NCBI RefSeq assembly: GCF_000621725.1
Contig: NZ_JHXM01000010.1
Location: 1 to 64,000 of the forward strand
Length of the DNA stretch: 64,000 bases
Direction of reading: 5' to 3'
Origin: Xylanibacter brevis ATCC 19188
GTDB taxonomy: Bacteria > Bacteroidota > Bacteroidia > Bacteroidales > Bacteroidaceae
Every line of letters starts with the position of its first letter. The first letter of the stretch is position 1. Of the stretch, positions 13,342-55,489 are shown piece by piece. The notes under the pieces were generated by a model. The model made no database searches. It worked only from the letters and a program-made list of their open reading frames with translations, and was not told the DNA's origin. The position numbers and the translations under genes are program-made.

Positions 13342-16300
13342 TTAGTTGATGATAATGGTTTTTGATTTATCGCCTTTGACGATATAAATTCCTTTTTTTA
13401 AGTTGTGTTGATCGAGGTCAGTACAAATATAGCGGCCTTGCAAATCATAGATAAGGTTGGCCTTCAGCTTACCCTCTGTGGCAGAGGGTAAGTGAATGGC
13501 CGTGGTCTTAAGTTTCGTTGTGAAGCGATAGCTGCCAGAACCCAGTCGATAGACCTGACAACCATTCTCGAAACCGACGTACTCTACGCCCTCAGCTTCG
13601 TTGGCGGGCAGGCTGCCTTCGAAGACAGTCGTATTCTCATTGGCCACGGGAAGATAGAGCGTGGCTGTGCTATTGGCAGGGATGGTGCAGTCGTAGGTGA
13701 TATCGTCTTGATCTGTGGTTTGCCAGCCGGAACATATTTCTCCATAATGGCTCTGGTGATAACCCTTGGCACTGGTGATGATTTCCTGTCCAGTAGGCAA
13801 CGTGGTGCGACAATCGGGTTGCGGTTGCAGAATGATATGACGGAAGCCAGGCTCTTTCGGGTCGTATTCAATGCCGAGCATATAGCGGTACATCCATTCG
13901 CCCACTGCACCATAAGCATAATGGTTGAAAGAGTTCATGCCCGGATCGCCGAAGCCACTCTCCACGGTATAGCTGTTCCATCGTTCCCAGATGGTTGTGG
14001 CACCCTGGTCAACGCTGTAGAGCCACGAAGGACAGTTGCGCTGCAGAAGCAGGTCGTAGGCATAGTCGTTGAGACCGAAACGCGAAAGGGTGGTGTTGAG
14101 AATGGCAGTACCGGCGAAGCCAGTGTTGAGCTTATAGCCATTGACGCGGATATTGCGCGATAGCAGGTTCTTGAACTTCTCTATCTCAGCATCGTCTTCC
14201 AGCAGGTTGTAGTCGAGTGCCATGAGATAGGCTGTCTGTGTGTTTTGACGTATAGAAGGCGTGATGTAACGACTACGGAACTCTGCCTTGATGTTCTGAT
14301 AGAGTTCTTGATATGTCTGTGCTTTCTGTGCATAATCGTCGTTGTCGGTTTGACTGAGAGCCATAGACATTTGACTCATCAGTTGTGCAACTAGTCCATA
14401 ATAGGCTACGGCAATGTAGCGTGTGTCAGTATTGACAAACGAAAGCCAGTCGCCCCAGGTCAGTCCACCACCATTATATTTATAGCCATCGAATACCTGC
14501 CTAGAGAGGTAGTTCATGTAGCGGGTCATAGACTCATAGTTCTCGCGGAGCACTTCCTTGTTGCCCGTCATCATATAAAGATTGTAAGGAACCAGAATAC
14601 CAGCATCTGCCCATACGGTCTGTCCGAAGGGGGTGCCCCAACATTCGGGTGCAACACCAGGATAGGCGCCTTCTCCGTTTTGACCATCGCGCATGTCTTG
14701 CATCCATTTGCGATAGAACGACTCCATGTTGGCATTGAAAAGGCCTGTGCGAGAAAATACCTGTGTGTCGGCTGTCCATCCCAAGCGCTCGTCGCGTTGC
14801 GGACAGTCGGTGGGAATGCTAAGCAGATTGCCTCGTTGTCCCCAGGTGATATTCGAGAAGAGTTGGTTGACCAGCGCATTACTTGTTTCTACAGAGCCAG
14901 TGCCTTCTGTTGAAGAACTGATGGGCTGAGCCTCGATAGACAGGATTTCAACATCGTCACTGGGAGTAATCTCGCAATAACGGAATCCGAAGAATGTGGT
15001 AGAGGGATGATAGCTCTCGCCATCCGCATCACCGCGCAGGGTGTAGTAGAGTGACGCTTTTGCCGAACGCAGGTTTGCTAGATATGGCGTACCTCCAGGT
15101 CCATCGTTGCCACGGCTGCGTTCACCGGTGTCATTAAGCATTTCGACGAAGCGTATCTTCAGTCGGTTGCCTGTCTGTCCTTTCACTTTGAAGTTGACCC
15201 ATCCTACAATGTTCTGACCGAAGTCGATGACCACCGACTGACCTTTCTTCAATGAAATAGTGCCATCACCCTCTTGTGTTGATATGACATTGGCCATGCC
15301 AAAGTCTGTGCCTGTTGACTTACTGCCTTCGTGAATGGTAGCAGTGCGTATATGCTGGACAAGGTCGGGCAGTGTCAACACATATCCGCCGGTGAACGCG
15401 TTCACCTCACCATTGAACTCGTGGTTTTCTTCCACGCCGTTCCAGTCGCTATCGTCATAGTCGGCGGCAGTCCAAGACGAGGCAACTCTCGCATCATAGA
15501 TTTCACCATCGTAAATATCGCCCAGCTTTAGTGCACCCTTCTTGGACGAAAGCCAGCTGAGGTCGCTGACAATCACGTCTTGCGTGTTGTCGTCGTAAGT
15601 GATGAGAAGTTTAGCAAGAAAACCCTCGGTGGGAGAACCATAGGCACCATGCATCACAGCACCAGCCCACCAACCTGGAGTTACGATGGCTCCAATGGCA
15701 TTCTTTCCTTCTTGCAGCAGAGAGGTGACATCGTGCGTGCTATAGAATACGCGCTTACGATATTCGGTCCATCCTGGTTTCAACTCTTCGTAGATGGTAG
15801 TGCCATCGGGCTGAACATGTCCTGCACGCTGGCCGTTCACAAACAGGTCATATACGCCGAGACCTGACGTGAAGAGCGTGGCAGAAAGAACCTTCTTGTT
15901 GACGAAGAACGTCTTGCGGAACATCGGCATGCCGTCTGTGGTGGTCTGCATGACCTTCTTTTCGCCAGATGCTGATTTGACATGGCACATCTGGTTGTTC
16001 AAGAACTTCTCGACGTCAGCATCAAAGAAATGGTCGGACGACAGGGCCTCGAAGTCCTCGTTTATCAACACAGAAGGCGCGCCCTCGCTGTTATATTGCG
16101 TCAGCACGATATTGTCGAAATAGGCCTCCTCGCCGGTGTTGTTGTCAACGCGCATGCCGATATTGCCCATCACGGCGCTGCCGCTATTGTCGTTGAAGGT
16201 GTCCACGAGGATATCGTCAATATAGGTGCTGATGACACCATTCTTCACTTCTATCCTGTAGTGATGCAGATGGCCGGTAAGGTCGGCTTTTGAGAACTGG

Positions 16301-17475
16301 GTGAACTGAGCATCGTTCCAGGTCAGGTTGCCATTGACATAGACATGGTGTCGAACAGAGGGATTGGCATTGTCGTTAACATTGATTTGCCACATATGAT
16401 AGGTGTTTCCTGAGGTAGCAGAAAAGACGACGGCTGCGGCAGCCTTAACGATATACATGTCGTAGTCGATACTGAAGTGTGTCGTTTCCTCGTTAGCATC
16501 CTTCTGCCAAACAAGCACGTGGTTGTTGGTAGAGCCCACGATACGCAGTTTTCCATCGGTTACGGTGCCACCTGAGAAGAGGCTGCCAGAAGAGAAATCT
16601 TCGGAGAAAAGTACGGTTTCATCGGACTTCTTGACTTTGATGTCGTCGTAAACTCCTACTTCGGGTAGTCCGTCGCGCTCACCATGATCCTCGCGCATGC
16701 CAATCTTGCCAAATTTAAAGTTGCCGGTGCGCTCGTCAACCAGCACATCGTTGATGTATGTGCGTGCGAGCGAGGCATTGGTCACTTCGATGCGTAATGT
16801 AAACTCGTCAGTATTGTTCAGAGCTACTTTCCCTGTGAGATTGATGTCTGCAAGACAGGCAGGATTGCCATTGCTCCACACATGCGGGCGCAGACGAGGA
16901 TAGTCGCCCTCGGTATTCAGCTGCCAGTAATAGAAGTTGCCGGCATCCTGCATGGCAAAGCATAGGCCTGCAGCTGTGTGCTCGATGGTTATCTTGCTCT
17001 CAACGGTGTAGTCGGCAATCACCTCGGGCGTCTGGCCAGAGGCATAATCACTATATTGAATCCATTTGGCGTTGCTCCATCCTGAACCCAGCAGGCCTGT
17101 GTCGAAACAAGCCTTTTCTGTGGAAGTGGCCTTGCCACCTTTGTTGTCACAGACCGTCACTTGCCAATGGTAGCGCGTAGCCGGTTGTAAAGGCAGGTCC
17201 TTGATGGTGACGTGGGCGGATTCACTGCTCTCCACCATTCCCGAATCGTAGATGGGTTGAGCGTCGTTTGCATCGTTAAAAATCATTAGTTGATAAGCAG
17301 TTTGCACCACATTTCGTTCGTCGGAATGCAGTTGCCATGAAAATTGAGGCGACAGTACATCAATGCTATTAGGATTGCGCAAAGATTGTACGCGCAGGTG
17401 GTCTACCGTAAGAGCATAAGATGAAATGCTACTGACAGTCATTACGAATAGACTTAAAATACTTGTTTTAAACAT
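13342..17475 (-). CDS. GH78 alpha-L-rhamnosidase with inserted lectin-like modules, T9SS tail
   Basis: A 1377-residue exported enzyme predicted to release terminal alpha-L-rhamnose. Order: signal peptide; Fn3-like domain (VQSLRNPNSIDVLSPQFSWQL to about 130); two lectin-like modules (about 150-470) matching those in the two neighbouring proteins; a rhamnosidase N-domain (FVNGQRAGHVQPDGTT, TPGWWAG); a beta domain (IDFGQNIVGWVNFKVKG); an (alpha/alpha)6 catalytic domain with TDCPQRDERLGW (acidic D895 and E896) and IWERWNSY; a C-terminal beta domain; and a sorting tail (YDLQGRYICTD to KGIYIVKGDKSK). Ordinary GH78 enzymes lack the ~300-residue lectin-like insertion. It is first in the three-gene group. 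A -7 element, TACCTTTG, lies at 17526-17519 on the minus strand. Confidence 0.92.
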   Translation of the reverse strand: MFKTSILSLFVMTVSSISSYALTVDHLRVQSLRNPNSIDVLSPQFSWQLHSDERNVVQTAYQLMIFNDANDAQPIYDSGMVESSESAHVTIKDLPLQPATRYHWQVTVCDNKGGKATSTEKACFDTGLLGSGWSNAKWIQYSDYASGQTPEVIADYTVESKITIEHTAAGLCFAMQDAGNFYYWQLNTEGDYPRLRPHVWSNGNPACLADINLTGKVALNNTDEFTLRIEVTNASLARTYINDVLVDERTGNFKFGKIGMREDHGERDGLPEVGVYDDIKVKKSDETVLFSEDFSSGSLFSGGTVTDGKLRIVGSTNNHVLVWQKDANEETTHFSIDYDMYIVKAAAAVVFSATSGNTYHMWQINVNDNANPSVRHHVYVNGNLTWNDAQFTQFSKADLTGHLHHYRIEVKNGVISTYIDDILVDTFNDNSGSAVMGNIGMRVDNNTGEEAYFDNIVLTQYNSEGAPSVLINEDFEALSSDHFFDADVEKFLNNQMCHVKSASGEKKVMQTTTDGMPMFRKTFFVNKKVLSATLFTSGLGVYDLFVNGQRAGHVQPDGTTIYEELKPGWTEYRKRVFYSTHDVTSLLQEGKNAIGAIVTPGWWAGAVMHGAYGSPTEGFLAKLLITYDDNTQDVIVSDLSWLSSKKGALKLGDIYDGEIYDARVASSWTAADYDDSDWNGVEENHEFNGEVNAFTGGYVLTLPDLVQHIRTATIHEGSKSTGTDFGMANVISTQEGDGTISLKKGQSVVIDFGQNIVGWVNFKVKGQTGNRLKIRFVEMLNDTGERSRGNDGPGGTPYLANLRSAKASLYYTLRGDADGESYHPSTTFFGFRYCEITPSDDVEILSIEAQPISSSTEGTGSVETSNALVNQLFSNITWGQRGNLLSIPTDCPQRDERLGWTADTQVFSRTGLFNANMESFYRKWMQDMRDGQNGEGAYPGVAPECWGTPFGQTVWADAGILVPYNLYMMTGNKEVLRENYESMTRYMNYLSRQVFDGYKYNGGGLTWGDWLSFVNTDTRYIAVAYYGLVAQLMSQMSMALSQTDNDDYAQKAQTYQELYQNIKAEFRSRYITPSIRQNTQTAYLMALDYNLLEDDAEIEKFKNLLSRNIRVNGYKLNTGFAGTAILNTTLSRFGLNDYAYDLLLQRNCPSWLYSVDQGATTIWERWNSYTVESGFGDPGMNSFNHYAYGAVGEWMYRYMLGIEYDPKEPGFRHIILQPQPDCRTTLPTGQEIITSAKGYHQSHYGEICSGWQTTDQDDITYDCTIPANSTATLYLPVANENTTVFEGSLPANEAEGVEYVGFENGCQVYRLGSGSYRFTTKLKTTAIHLPSATEGKLKANLIYDLQGRYICTDLDQHNLKKGIYIVKGDKSKTIIIN

Positions 17476-17602: not shown

Positions 17603-17778
17603 ATTACTTACTTTGCTTTTTGAGAAGCTACCTTTGCTTTTTGAGATAAGTGGTTTTTTGACACCAGAAAAGTGCCACTTTCATTACGGCAAAGCGGCAC
17701 TTTCATTACGGCAAAGCGGCACTTTAGTACGACTAAAGTTATACTTTGCCGTAACCAAAGCTATACTTCGCTATGACC
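17603..17778. repeat. 22-bp-period palindrome array A
   Basis: The 310-bp gap between the GH78 gene and the transporter gene holds a strict 22-bp array and no gene. Units start at 17669, 17691, 17713, 17735 and 17757; each begins with a 13-bp imperfect palindrome of type AAAGnnnnACTTT (AAAGTGCCACTTT, AAAGCGGCACTTT twice, AAAGTTATACTTT, AAAGCTATACTTC) followed by a 9-bp linker. Three more diverged units precede them at 17603, 17625 and 17647, the first two sharing CTTTGCTTTTTGAGA. The period of 22 rules out a coding repeat. The function is unknown. Confidence 0.8.
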
Positions 17779-17785
17779 AACGTGT

Positions 17786-18712
17786 TTATTTGGAATCGGA
17801 ACTGTAGAATTTTGCCACCAGCGCACCGCTGATGTTGTGCCAAACACTGAACACGGCACCAGGGATGGTGGCAAGTGGGAAGGTGGCAAAATGAAGTACG
17901 GCCAGTGATGAGGCCAACCCGCTGTTTTGCATGCCTACCTCGATGCTGAGGGCCACACACTTGGGTTTCTCAAGACGGAGCAGGCGCCCCAACAGGAAAC
18001 CCACGGACAGGCCCAGCAGGTTGTGAAGCATGACAACGAGGACAACCACCATGCCGCCAACCAGCAGACGATCGGCACTGTGAGCCACGATGATGCCAAC
18101 GACCAGCGCAATGACTACCGATGAGAAAGCGGGTAGATAGGGTGTGACAGCCTTTGTAAGGCTGGGTAGGAAGTGCTGACAAAGCAATCCTGCCACGATG
18201 GGCGCGATGACCACATAGACGATGCTCTGCAGCATGCCCAGTGTATCAACATCTACCATCGTACCTGCCATGAGCCAAACCAGAAAAGGTGTCAGCAGCG
18301 GAGCCAACAAGGTAGAGGTGGCCGTCATACCGACAGACAGCGGAAGGTCGCCCTTGGCCAGATAGGTGATAACGTTAGAAGCGGTACCACCAGGACAGCA
18401 GCCCACCAGGATGACACCCAGCGCCAGCTCTTTGGGTAAGGCGAAAAGCCAAGACAGCGTCCAAGCCAGCAACGGCATGACGGTGAATTGTGCCAGACAA
18501 CCGATGAAGATATCCTTTGGACGACTCAGCACGATGCGGAAATCATGAGGTGAGAGCGTCAGTCCCATGCCAAACATGATGACGCCGAGCATGGGGTTGA
18601 TGGTCCAGGTGTCTATCCAAATAAAAGAATTGGGAAACAACAAAGAAATACCTGCAACGAGCAAGACCATGAGTCCCATCCAACGGGCTATGAAATTACA
18701 AATACTTTTCAT
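17786..18712 (-). CDS. Bile acid:sodium symporter (BASS) family transporter
   Basis: A 308-residue inner-membrane protein with about nine to ten hydrophobic segments. The family cation-site motifs are present: GCCPGGTASNVITYLAKGD (about residues 104-122) and EVGMQNSGLA (about 261-270). The N-terminus and length agree with bacterial YocS/ASBT-like members. Family members move bile acids or other organic anions with sodium; the substrate here cannot be told. The start at 18712 places the first membrane segment correctly. It is divergent from pflB. The 3' end abuts repeat array A. Confidence 0.92.
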   Translation of the reverse strand: MKSICNFIARWMGLMVLLVAGISLLFPNSFIWIDTWTINPMLGVIMFGMGLTLSPHDFRIVLSRPKDIFIGCLAQFTVMPLLAWTLSWLFALPKELALGVILVGCCPGGTASNVITYLAKGDLPLSVGMTATSTLLAPLLTPFLVWLMAGTMVDVDTLGMLQSIVYVVIAPIVAGLLCQHFLPSLTKAVTPYLPAFSSVVIALVVGIIVAHSADRLLVGGMVVVLVVMLHNLLGLSVGFLLGRLLRLEKPKCVALSIEVGMQNSGLASSLAVLHFATFPLATIPGAVFSVWHNISGALVAKFYSSDSK

Positions 18713-36438: not shown

Positions 36439-37685
36439 TGTTATACAACCTGATCATATATCTATATCTTCTTGGAGTGGCTATCTATAGCCGCTTCAAC
36501 GAGAAGGTGCGTAAGATGTGGCGTGGTGAGCGCGATGCTTTCCGCGTGTTGCGCGAAAAGGTAGATCCCAATGCTCGCTATGTGTGGTTCCATGCAGCCT
36601 CGTTGGGCGAGTTTGAGCAGGGCCGTCCCTTGATCGAACAGATCAAGCGCGAGCATCCCGACATCAAGATCCTGCTCACGTTCTTCTCACCCTCAGGCTA
36701 TGAGGTGCGCAAGAACTACGAGGGTGCCGACATCATTACCTATCTGCCCCTCGACACCATCACCAATGCACGTCGTTTCCTGCGCATCATACGTCCAGAG
36801 ATGGCTTTCTTCATCAAGTATGAGTTTTGGTACAACTACCTGCACATACTGAAGCATCGCCATGTACCCGTATATAGCGTGTCCAGTATCTTCCGCGACG
36901 GACAGGTGTTCTTCCGCTGGTATGGTCGTCAGTATGGTCGTGTGCTGAAGTGCTTCACCCATTTCTTCGTGCAGAACGAGAAGAGTCGTGAGTTGCTGGC
37001 AGGCATTGGCCTGACCAATACGACGGTGGTTGGTGACACCCGTTTCGATCGTGTGCTCCAGATCAAGGCCGCTGCCAAGCAGTTGCCCATCGTTGAGGCT
37101 TTCGTTAAGGATGCTCCACATGTGTTTGTGGCCGGCTCTTCGTGGCAGCCCGACGAGGAGATCTTCATCAAGTATTTCAATCAGCATAAGGATTGGAAAC
37201 TGATTATCGCCCCTCACGTGATAGGTGAAGACCACCTCCAGCAAATCGAGAAACTGCTCGAAGGTCGCAAGGTCATCCGCTATACGGAGGCAGAATCTCA
37301 CCTCTCAACACTCACCTCTCAACTCTCATCTTTCGACGTTCTCATCATCAACTGCTTCGGCCTGCTCAGCAGCATCTATCGCTATGGTGATGTGACCTAT
37401 GTCGGTGGCGGTTTTGGTGTTGGCATCCACAACACGTTGGAGGCCGCCGTGTGGGATGTTCCCGTGTTCTTTGGTCCCAACAATCAGAAGTTCCAGGAGG
37501 CCCAGAAGTTGAAAGCCTGCGGTGGAGGATTAGAGATTTCAAGTTATGAAGACTTCGAGCGTCAGATGAATCTCTTTGATGCTGATGCTCAAAAGATAAC
37601 GTCCGCCGGTCAGGAAGCCGGCAAGCTGGTGCAACAACTGGCTGGTGCCACACAAAAAGTGTTGAGCGGCGTACAAATCAAATAA
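36438..37685 (+). CDS. waaA: Kdo transferase
   Basis: A 415-residue GT30 enzyme that adds 3-deoxy-D-manno-octulosonic acid to lipid A during lipopolysaccharide synthesis at the inner membrane. An N-terminal hydrophobic segment (LIIYLYLLGVAIYSRF) is followed by WFHAASLGEFEQGRPLIEQI, with the conserved glutamate, then FFIKYEFWYNYL, SSIFRDGQVFFRW and the nucleotide-sugar part YVGGGFGVGIHNTLEAAVWDVPVFFGPN. It overlaps gltX by one base (TAATG). Family identity is secure. Confidence 0.95.
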   Translation: MLYNLIIYLYLLGVAIYSRFNEKVRKMWRGERDAFRVLREKVDPNARYVWFHAASLGEFEQGRPLIEQIKREHPDIKILLTFFSPSGYEVRKNYEGADIITYLPLDTITNARRFLRIIRPEMAFFIKYEFWYNYLHILKHRHVPVYSVSSIFRDGQVFFRWYGRQYGRVLKCFTHFFVQNEKSRELLAGIGLTNTTVVGDTRFDRVLQIKAAAKQLPIVEAFVKDAPHVFVAGSSWQPDEEIFIKYFNQHKDWKLIIAPHVIGEDHLQQIEKLLEGRKVIRYTEAESHLSTLTSQLSSFDVLIINCFGLLSSIYRYGDVTYVGGGFGVGIHNTLEAAVWDVPVFFGPNNQKFQEAQKLKACGGGLEISSYEDFERQMNLFDADAQKITSAGQEAGKLVQQLAGATQKVLSGVQIK

Positions 37686-40765: not shown

Positions 40766-40832
40766 ATTGTTAATTGTCCGCTCGGCTCCGCCGCTTGGCT
40801 TTGCCAAGAATTATCAACTATCAATTATCAAT
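40766..40832. repeat. TCAATT-type intergenic repeat with hairpin
   Basis: Between the carbonic anhydrase-like gene and mdh lie AATTGTTAATTGTCC and, inverted, ATCAACTATCAATTATCAAT, with a perfect CTTGGC/GCCAAG hairpin (40794-40808) between. A similar ATTGTCAATTATCAATTGTC run occurs near the 5S gene (about 149-176). This looks like a small dispersed intergenic element; the hairpin could also terminate mdh transcripts. Confidence 0.5.
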
Positions 40833-40835
40833 TGC

Positions 40836-44640: not shown

Positions 44641-44816
44641 AAAGTGGCCCTTTTGTCCTCCAATAGTATAAGTTTTGCTCCGCATCTAGACTCTAGAAAC
44701 GGTCATTCTAGACTCTAGATGGAGCAATTCCAGACTTTAGATGGAGCGGCTCTAGACTTTAGAATGCTGACTTCTAGACTCTAGATGCGACGTAAAAGTG
44801 GCACTTTTGTTTCATT
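44641..44816. repeat. 22-bp-period palindrome array B
   Basis: The 630-bp gap at 44357-44986 has no gene. It holds the minus-strand promoter, AT-rich sequence, then eight 22-bp units starting at 44641, 44663, 44685, 44707, 44729, 44751, 44773 and 44795. The outer units have the core AAAGTGGCCCTTT and AAAGTGGCACTTT. The second is diverged. The five central units have cores TCTAGACTCTAGA (three times), TCCAGACTTTAGA and TCTAGACTTTAGA. Each 13-bp core is an imperfect palindrome followed by a 9-bp linker. Diverged units in the same 22-bp phase continue to about 44904 (for example AACGGTCACCGGT at 44883). Confidence 0.85.
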
Positions 44817-53835: not shown

Positions 53836-54011
53836 AAAGTGCCACTTTTGTCATGCAATACTAAAGGTTTTGGTGTCGTTCTAGGGGCTGGAATGGTCGC
53901 ATCCAGGGGCTAGACCGACTCCATGCAGGGGCTAGATTGACCGCATCTAGGGGCTAGAATGCGCCATTCCAGGGGCTAGACCATTCACGAAAGTGCCACG
54001 ATAGCTCGTAA
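53836..54011. repeat. 22-bp-period palindrome array C
   Basis: The 602-bp gap between the DUF58 gene and rpsU holds no gene. Eight 22-bp units start at 53836, 53858, 53880, 53902, 53924, 53946, 53968 and 53990. The first and last have cores AAAGTGCCACTTT and AAAGTGCCACGAT. The second is diverged. The five central ones read TCTAGGGGCTGGA, TCCAGGGGCTAGA (twice), TGCAGGGGCTAGA and TCTAGGGGCTAGA, each with a 9-bp linker. Upstream in the same phase lie AACAATAGCTATT (53814) and AAACTGCCGCTTT (53792). An 8-bp inverted repeat, GCATCCGC/GCGGATGC, at about 53750-53782 may end the DUF58 transcript. Confidence 0.85.
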
Positions 54012-54326: not shown

Positions 54327-54518
54327 ATGATTATTGTACCCGTAAAAGAAGGCGAAAACATTGAAAGAGCCCTCAAGAAGTTTAAGAGAAAGTTTGAGAA
54401 GACAGGTGTTGTTAAGGAGCTGCGTCGTCGTCAGCAGTTTGACAAGCCCTCTGTCCTGAAGCGCCTGAAGATGGAGCATGCCATCTACGTTCAGCAGCTT
54501 CGCACCAACGAGGAATAA
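54327..54518 (+). CDS. rpsU: Ribosomal protein bS21
   Basis: A 63-residue basic protein of the 30S subunit. MIIVPVKEGENIERALKKFKRKFEKTGVVKELRRRQQFDKPS is the bS21 signature. In Bacteroidetes bS21 takes part in masking the anti-Shine-Dalgarno sequence, consistent with the lack of SD sites in this window. It is followed by xerC and hpf. Confidence 0.96.
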   Translation: MIIVPVKEGENIERALKKFKRKFEKTGVVKELRRRQQFDKPSVLKRLKMEHAIYVQQLRTNEE

Positions 54519-54613: not shown

Positions 54614-55489
54614 ATGATTGACCTCTTCCTCAATTACTTGCGCTACGAACGGAATCGCAGTGAGCTGACCGTTCTGACGTATGAGAAAAGTCTAAAACAC
54701 TTTGAAGCATACTTCAAGAGCAAGGAGGATAGTCTGGATTGGGTATCGGTGGATGCCGATGTGATCCGTTCTTGGATGGAAGACATGATGGACAGAGGCG
54801 ACAAGGCTACAACCGTAGGCACCGGACTCTCAGCAGTTCGCTCGTTCTATAGGTTCGCCCTCGCCAGAGGATTGGTCAAGAAGGATCCCGCACATCAGGT
54901 GCAGGCACCCAAGAAGCAGAAGCCCTTACCACAATTCGTGAAAGAAGGGCAGATGGATGTACTATTGGATGCGGCCTGTGGAGATGATTATAAGACGGTA
55001 CGTGCGCGTACCATTATTATATTACTCTATGAGGCGGGATTGCGAAGGGCAGAGTTGATAGGCCTGGACGATGACGATGTGGATTTTGCTGCGATGCAGT
55101 TGAAAGTGACTGGTAAGCGCAATAAGCAACGTCTGATACCTTTCGGCGAAGAGATGGCCGCACAGTTGAAAAACTATATGGCCGTTCGCGACGAACAGGT
55201 GGATAAACAGTCTAAGGCTCTCTTTCTGGGACGAAATGGGCAGCGCATCTCTCAGACTACAGTATATAATATTGTGAGAGAACAGTTGCAACAGGTATCG
55301 ACCCTGAAGAAACGCTCGCCGCATGTGCTACGTCACAGCTTCGCCACGGCTATGCTGAATCACGATGCCGGACTGGAAAGCGTCAGGAAGTTGCTGGGAC
55401 ATGAAAGCCTGGAGACAACCGAGATCTATACGCACACCACGTTTGAGCAGTTGAGGCGAATTTACAAAGAATCCCACCCTAGGGGTTGA
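54614..55489 (+). CDS. xerC: Tyrosine recombinase XerC-type
   Basis: A 291-residue site-specific recombinase. N-terminal SAM-like DNA-binding domain (about 1-90) and C-terminal catalytic domain with Arg in EAGLRRAELIGL (about 147), H-x-x-R in HVLRHSFA (H237, R240), His in LLGHESL (H263) and the nucleophile Tyr272 in TTEIYTH. Its size and its place between rpsU and hpf in a housekeeping block suggest the chromosomal dimer-resolution recombinase rather than an element integrase. XerC versus XerD cannot be decided from sequence alone. Confidence 0.88.
   Translation: MIDLFLNYLRYERNRSELTVLTYEKSLKHFEAYFKSKEDSLDWVSVDADVIRSWMEDMMDRGDKATTVGTGLSAVRSFYRFALARGLVKKDPAHQVQAPKKQKPLPQFVKEGQMDVLLDAACGDDYKTVRARTIIILLYEAGLRRAELIGLDDDDVDFAAMQLKVTGKRNKQRLIPFGEEMAAQLKNYMAVRDEQVDKQSKALFLGRNGQRISQTTVYNIVREQLQQVSTLKKRSPHVLRHSFATAMLNHDAGLESVRKLLGHESLETTEIYTHTTFEQLRRIYKESHPRG

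Follow-up and report, generated by a model that had tools for sequence, protein, structure and literature searches.

Intergenic palindrome arrays phased at 22 bp in a rumen Prevotella genome as candidate sites for a cooperative DNA-binding protein

Dispersed repeats in bacterial genomes are usually attributed to selfish elements of the REP or MITE type or to RNA structures. REP, BIME and REPIN elements are short intergenic palindromes present in dozens of copies, and CRISPR and TIGR loci are guide-RNA arrays. Regularly spaced protein-binding sites are known from plasmid iterons and parC/ParR-type centromere arrays, in which sites about one or two helical turns apart are bound cooperatively; these occupy one locus per replicon and consist mostly of direct repeats, whereas the arrays described here are built of inverted half-sites and occur by the dozen on the chromosome. 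Noc, SlmA and MatP have tens of palindromic sites distributed over the chromosome and untied to gene function, but theirs are single sites and those reported here form phased multi-unit arrays, with no consistent extra ParB-family gene in the genomes that carry them.

Among elements already described, REP-type repeats and the BrickBuilt minisatellite come closest, as far as the accessible parts of the sources go. Within the accessible REP-type literature (PMC3116915, PMC3733652, PMC3686654), REP/REPIN elements associated with RAYT are given as a palindrome of 20–40 nt bearing a GTAG or CGTC tag (PMC3733652). The accessible portion of PMC4596501 presents BrickBuilt of Porphyromonas gingivalis as a MITE minisatellite with 23-nt tandem repeats at 19 intergenic places, a strain-variable unit number, and leader and tail segments with terminal inverted repeats, and refers to 41-, 23- and 22-nt tandem repeats described earlier in P. 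gingivalis W83. The arrays reported here resemble REP, BIME and REPIN elements in being short, intergenic palindromes in dozens of copies, and are unlike them in their 22-bp pitch, characteristic unit number and 13-bp cores, in the occurrence of other palindromes at the same pitch by species, and in having no association with IS200-type transposases; the GTAG or CGTC tag is absent from the composition of unit and linker. They share with BrickBuilt the presence of short tandem repeats at intergenic places of a Bacteroidales genome, whereas 13-bp palindromes and an 11/22-bp register are not described in the accessible portion of PMC4596501. Open-licence PubMed Central text yielded no description of such arrays, an absence that is not proof, and phased palindrome arrays of this kind are not described in the accessible parts of PMC5771137, PMC4596501 and PMC8040213.

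The window, that is, the whole stretch of 64,000 nucleotides analysed here, contains three arrays, the first of which (array A) lies in the gap between two minus-strand genes. The features to which the text refers are as follows:

13342–17475, minus strand: GH78-type alpha-L-rhamnosidase gene, its start facing the gap that contains array A
17612–17646, plus strand: direct repeat, two copies of TTTGCTTTTTGAGA starting at 17612 and 17633, 21 bp apart
17669–17778, no strand assigned: array A, five 22-bp units, each a 13-bp core plus a 9-bp linker, with cores AAAGTGCCACTTT, AAAGCGGCACTTT (twice), AAAGTTATACTTT and AAAGCTATACTTC
17786–18712, minus strand: SBF (sodium/bile acid symporter family) gene, its stop 16 bp from the end of the last core of array A
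44641–44807, no strand assigned: array B, eight in-phase units, with an inner block of five TCTAG-type units at 44685–44785 and edges AAAGTGGCCCTTT and AAAGTGGCACTTT
53836–54002, no strand assigned: array C, eight in-phase units, with an inner block of five TCYAGGGGCTRGA-like units at 53880–53980, AAAGTGCCACTTT at 53836 and a degenerate AAAGTGCCACGAT at 53990

The units of array A start at 17669, 17691, 17713, 17735 and 17757, a pitch of exactly 22 bp, and contain, in that order, 6, 5, 5, 5 and 3 palindromic pairs out of 6. The original prediction of five units at 22 bp was borne out, far above chance in both shuffles and Markov simulations: AAAGNNNNACTTT has 11 matches on the two strands of the window, representing seven distinct sites, against 0.44 expected over 100 shuffles (maximum 3), and the window contains three chain hits, defined as three successive palindromes at 22 bp with at least 5 of 6 pairs each, compared to a mean of 0.005 and a maximum of 1 in 200 simulations. 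When spacings from 14 to 44 bp were scanned in the window, chains appeared at 22 and at its double, 44, only. Three older units had also been proposed in the same phase upstream (17603, 17625 and 17647), but these are not palindromic, with 2, 0 and 2 of 6 pairs, and the region is that of the TTTGCTTTTTGAGA repeat, which is itself non-palindromic and outside the 22-bp register. The compensating changes claimed for the middle bases were likewise not found, as TGCC is palindromic while CGGC and TTAT break one pair each and the CTAT unit has two broken inner pairs and one lost outer pair. The core of array A had been identified as the flanking unit of arrays B and C, and AAAGTGSCACTTT does stand at one edge of each, at 44795 in array B, with AAAGTGGCCCTTT opposite, and at 53836 in array C. 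Arrays B and C are of a composite kind and array A is a plain AAAG array. Membership of a single genome-wide family explains these three observations, originally made separately, as one thing.

Other features of the window were recorded alongside. Downstream of array C come a small ORF (54327–54518) and then a tyrosine recombinase gene (54614–55489). Heptanucleotide tandem repeats (AATTGTC, AATTATC and TCTCAAC; 147–177, 40809–40833 and 37296–37328) are possible slippage sites, and a tandem repeat with a 76-bp unit in 1.9 copies occupies 391–539.

Intergenic arrays of this type number in the dozens in the rumen Prevotella genome, array A among them. A search of its 3.49 Mb for the word AAAGTGSCACTTT gave 50 places, against none for the reversed control, and TCTAGNSNCTAGA repeated at 22 bp gave 84 forward matches here and 0 in 23 other genomes searched. 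Fifty-six stretches, each some 6 kb long and enclosing such a place, were examined (37 selected by a single 13-base word, 16 by a TCTAG pair and three by other AAAG units), making 57 with the window. Composite arrays in these stretches have outer AAAG...CTTT-frame units, often decayed, and inner blocks that differ, built from TCTAGASTCTAGA, TCYAGSSSCTRGA or, less often, CGACTTAAGTCG, and the several palindrome classes share the layout of 13-bp core and 9-bp linker. Since 16 of the 57 stretches had been picked by a TCTAG pair at 22 bp, the 37 single-word stretches were tallied apart; there, of 145 spacings between adjacent units, 142 are divisible by 22 bp and 144 by 11 bp. Over all 57 stretches, the corresponding figures for successive strict units are 237 and 240 of 241. 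Spacings of 33 bp are half-unit shifts, as at the junction of a TCTAGA block with a TCTAGCCCC block. In a motif-free scan of the 57 stretches, the number of chain hits was 143 for a spacing of 22 bp, 91 for 44 bp and 15 for 33 bp, and every remaining spacing from 14 to 45 bp gave 0 or 1.

The number of units is also narrowly distributed. Exactly five units are present in 19 of the 24 TCTAG blocks of the single-word stretches and in 33 of 47 overall, where seven more have four. Among 36 arrays of genome G095, 24 have four units, ten have three and two have five, and all 64 spacings are 22 bp, although these places were picked by three units at 22 bp, which builds the spacing into the search and places arrays of fewer than three units outside it. 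A wider spread of unit numbers would be expected from slippage alone. Two pairs of identical or nearly identical arrays lie 3–4 kb apart in G095 (G095:C6:45555 / 49509 and G095:C9:12023 / 15077), perhaps copied with local duplication. Outside the arrays, another dispersed repeat, some 260 bp long (L033, 3879–4136; L112, 2477–2736), has 82% identity between its copies.

Placement was determined from gene calls made with our own simple hexamer caller. All 51 blocks in this genome, and all 33 rows (31 places) from other genomes, are clear of predicted genes. Here, 29 blocks lie between tandem genes, 15 between convergent genes, five between divergent genes and two at an edge, compared to 180 tandem, 36 convergent and 39 divergent background gene pairs in the same stretches, and 23 of the 29 tandem blocks are closer to the 3′ end of a gene than to a start (medians 140 and 253 bp). 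Given this tendency, the earlier statement that array A lies upstream of the promoter of a glycosidase cluster, while literally true (it begins 193 bp from the rhamnosidase start codon), is uninformative. Of 25 places in G095, 18 are tandem, four divergent, one convergent and two at an edge, and 25 of 26 distances from the first base of an array to a gene start exceed 140 bp. Divergent placement is commoner in other species than here, at 8 of 33 rows or 7 of 31 places, a set in which six rows miss a neighbour and L149/L188 and L150/L197 are two places listed twice; this keeps an operator role alive in those species. A Pfam scan of 69 of the 94 listed neighbours found no family in more than two of them, and no recurrent cas/tas effector beside the arrays. 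A gene family travelling with the arrays was rejected as a candidate, the largest protein cluster in the 57 stretches having three members.

To follow the arrays over a short evolutionary distance, this genome (G000) was compared with the sister isolate RUI122 (G040), in which 20 of 26 array loci, L041 included, have an ortholog among our stretches. Array A is exactly one 22-bp unit shorter in the sister, and a 22-bp indel at an array unit separates four more pairs (L024, L009, L003 and L037, the last, in pair L181/L037, sitting amid other gaps), so that gain or loss of whole units, as in intergenic tandem repeats of about 22–23 bp, is seen in five orthologous pairs; several other orthologous arrays have no indel. 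Three short arrays (L016, L018 and L019) have gaps of 1–6 bp at their edges, and irregular gaps at L006, L026, L034 and the flanks of L024 and L033, where flanks differ or are cut, were left uninterpreted. Across 19 aligned pairs, 44 of 1650 core positions, 115 of 1137 linker positions and 1557 of 20107 flank positions differ. Because the sister loci were picked by exact AAAGTGSCACTTT, which favors conserved anchors, the TCTAG units, which played no part in that choice, are reported separately, and in these 12 of 533 core positions (2.3%) differ vs 43 of 363 linker positions (11.8%; P = 6e-9). The contrast is weaker in decayed AAAG-like units (33/610 vs 37/423, P = 0.04), and an in-phase non-array control showed no clear difference (187/2296 vs 157/1583, P = 0.06). 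Pair L175/L027, in which the arrays differ, was excluded from both counts, and L041/window entered the all-unit count and not the TCTAG count. Two loci compared with the complete genome G134 gave 46/273 in cores vs 71/189 in linkers (P = 8e-7), with one unit pair retained that is out of class. These results indicate that the sequence of the linker is nearly free and that its length is not. Extra DNA abuts an array in this genome only at L006 (2006–3003), by eye with a DUF559-like gene, and in the sister only at L174 (395–1346), by eye with a higBA-like toxin–antitoxin pair; the arrays may be insertion hot spots.

Beyond the sister genome, a core-blind frame pattern of three AAAG-N5-CTTT units at 22 bp was found in 32 of 200 same-genus genomes, at up to 134 places, compared to five matches in three genomes for its reversed control, and at the level of the order in 3 of 393 genomes, including G383 from a different family, which has six matches. 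Several relatives share the pitch and have other palindromes, and the centers between AAAG and CTTT are genome-specific: AAAGGTTACCTTT in G010 and G161, AAAGCAGCCCTTT and AAAGCTATGCTTT in G012, AAAGCTATGCTTT in G185 and AAAGACSGTCTTT in RUG12198 (L047), with AATCAAWTTGATT blocks in G006. The 22-bp phasing, whose loss in close relatives was to count against the original prediction, persists in the relatives examined, with the same or a different palindrome. The proposal that AAAG...CTTT is the ancestral or anchor unit stands in part. It forms the outer layer of many composite arrays in the genome, its frame has the distribution just given, and at L175/L027 a TCTAG block sits inside an AAAG array here where the sister has AAAG-type units only; against this, the exact word AAAGTGSCACTTT is rare elsewhere, being present in 8 of 40 genomes searched and, outside this genome, exceeding two sites in G006 only.

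A motif-free scan of 69 loci from relatives gave a modest excess at 22 bp, with six hits against 0–3 at other spacings, of which one is the array A ortholog and two are one plain tandem repeat; all-spacings totals for the added stretches were swamped by L137, a low-complexity contig of 340 bases, and were not used. No 22-bp chain was found in 240 kb from the array-negative relatives G003, G009, G016 and G007, to which G007 contributed 20 kb and of which G003 has two AAAG matches elsewhere. This is a weak test, as the array-bearing G006 also has no chain in 60 kb. The 24 AAAGTGCCACTTT sites of G134 are spread over both arms, with no domain pattern by eye, chains within an N-masked stretch and all-spacings totals of that scan being disregarded. 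A viral collection of a stated 2.9 million contigs contained the AAAG triple pattern in two contigs, at three stretches, and neither the TCTAG pair pattern nor the AATYA triple pattern in any contig. Viral spread of the arrays was rejected on this near-absence. In one of the two contigs, provirus IMGVR_UViG_2558860931_000002, there are two four-unit AAAGCATAGCTTT arrays (L218, 6507–6585; L219, 6883–6961), one of which starts directly after the stop codon that ends a long phage ORF. Although the cores of both arrays have the same direction, two of the linkers in one array are found inverted in the other. The other contig, IMGVR_UViG_3300022666_000121, has a three-unit AAAGCCAGGCTTT/AAAGGGGGGCTTT array (L220, 4845–4901), with a long phage ORF some 1 kb downstream whose product, judged by eye, resembles a portal protein.

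Several explanations other than a DNA-binding protein were weighed against these data. A selfish MITE- or REP-like element that spreads arrays between genes, and is tolerated as it avoids promoters, would fit the dispersal of the copies, the runs of units, linkers included, that are common to L117/L113 and L002/L010, the all-against-all similarities of up to 338 bp, the TCTAG block missing from the orthologous sister locus and the arrays in viral contigs. It is nevertheless an unlikely explanation, as orthologous fixed copies keep constrained cores, which is unexpected of dead copies, and linkers mostly differ from unit to unit. The 45 longest of 755 similarities, all but L033/L112 of them within phased array stretches, revealed no common leader or tail and no terminal inverted repeat around the arrays. 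IS200-type (RAYT-like) transposases do not track the arrays either, being present in 16 of 32 array genomes vs 111 of 200 overall, with G056, G205, G095 and G012 outside the 111; this genome does have four matches to IS200-type (Y1) transposases. A RAYT/REP system was rejected on this lack of association. That the arrays are guide-RNA loci akin to CRISPR or TIGR, with the 9-bp linkers as spacers, is scarcely credible. This would account for a variable segment of constant length between conserved repeats, but there are dozens of short arrays rather than one, no gene family accompanies them among the 69 neighbors scanned, sister linkers differ at about the flank rate, and the linkers of G095 are not unconstrained as spacers are, with T or C at position 1 in 98% and A or G at position 2 in 99%.

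An element acting as RNA, in which the transcribed array forms a long hairpin serving as terminator, attenuator or RNA-processing site, would agree with the tendency of arrays toward 3′ gene ends and with the folding of six of seven sequences at z-scores of −5.7 to −8.5. Two of those six are the two strands of array A, and such scores would be expected of any tandem palindromes, while array C, in which all five centers have the same orientation, shows no better folding than shuffled sequences (z = −0.65). A hairpin has no need of a constant 9-nt linker, and the array A region has four Rfam matches with E-values of 0.49–0.84, far below gathering scores. The RNA element, which we hold to be very improbable, was rejected despite the good folding scores because array C remains unfolded and linker length is nearly constant. 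Covariation of the palindrome arms, which the original prediction had expected, was not convincing. In 136 units of G095, each half of which approximates YRAAAGGY, and in 231 TCTAG unit copies from this genome, the innermost of the six pairs (6-8) is clearly coupled (0.625 vs 0.489 expected and 0.645 vs 0.493 expected, respectively), and the other five pairs of both sets are without convincing coupling (P 0.03 to 1.0, the lowest value being weak coupling of pair 1-13 in G095). Between the sister genomes, one double change leads from palindrome to palindrome and two break a pair, and 21 single changes break a pair while eight make one. Base-paired stems or small RNAs are thus unsupported, and compensating stems were rejected on these pair statistics; with only the innermost pair clearly co-varying, the half-sites appear to be read independently, and a protein dimer reading two arms fits the pair and folding data better than a paired stem. 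If such proteins were gene-specific and each array an operator of its neighbor, several palindrome classes would suggest several proteins, and the divergent places of other species would be in keeping with this. The rarity of divergent blocks here, the long distances to gene starts in G095 and the lack of a common family among the scanned neighbors make control of individual genes improbable.

Our preferred reading, to which we assign a probability of about 0.6, is that the arrays are phase-locked sites for a putative DNA-binding protein that would be dimeric and bind cooperatively. The arrays combine a constant pitch with conserved half-sites and a free linker sequence, are intergenic, gain and lose unit-sized segments and differ in palindrome by species, and from these features we infer protein binding, a dimeric and cooperative mode of binding and an architectural role. 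The 22-bp unit would comprise two inverted 11-bp half-sites, with a putative homodimer occupying each 13-bp core. With one core per 22 bp, or roughly two helical turns, neighboring dimers could be packed side by side, and the packed dimers would form a nucleoprotein patch whose size is characteristic, usually five units here and usually four in G095. Counting against the model is the helical repeat of B-DNA, 10.5 bp per turn, by which 22 bp corresponds to 2.1 turns; without slight underwinding of the DNA, an array of five units would be turned through roughly half a rotation. Since the arrays are intergenic, more often near 3′ ends and unaccompanied by a particular gene family, a chromosomal role is the likeliest, and their role is probably chromosome-level rather than gene-specific; this could be nucleoid organization or another genome-wide bookmark, as opposed to control of a given operon. 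The patchy occurrence of the frame among same-genus genomes is odd for a housekeeping organizer.

Tests of candidate families turned up no binding protein, a further point against the model. ParB_N counts do not track the arrays: PF02195 is found once in G000, G205, G095 and G012 and twice in G056, G082 and G003, and about as many array-negative genomes have at least two. An expansion of ParB/Noc was rejected because array genomes have no consistent additional ParB-family gene, and an expansion of AsnC/Lrp (FFRP) was rejected on 1–4 copies in array-rich vs 1–3 in array-poor genomes (33 genomes).

In the evolution of such sites, the pitch would be kept while the recognized sequence is replaced, as with AAAG...CTTT units that have other centers, the TCTAG inner blocks of this clade and AATCAAWTTGATT in G006. 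Spacing is preserved where sequence changes between species, and the core is constrained where the linker drifts at about the rate of the flanks, which points to a physical constraint of helical pitch imposed by a putative protein. It is a tentative possibility, less probable than the binding of a dimer as such, that the arrays belong to a previously undescribed chromatin-like organizing system of Prevotella and some relatives, in which dozens of intergenic docking patches keep the 22-bp pitch, the recognition sequence is repeatedly replaced and a family of dimeric binders co-evolves with it, a replacement of sequence at kept pitch that can be likened to the turnover of satellites and centromeres in eukaryotes. 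If this is true, an abundant genus of the gut and rumen would gain a genome-wide DNA-organizing system.
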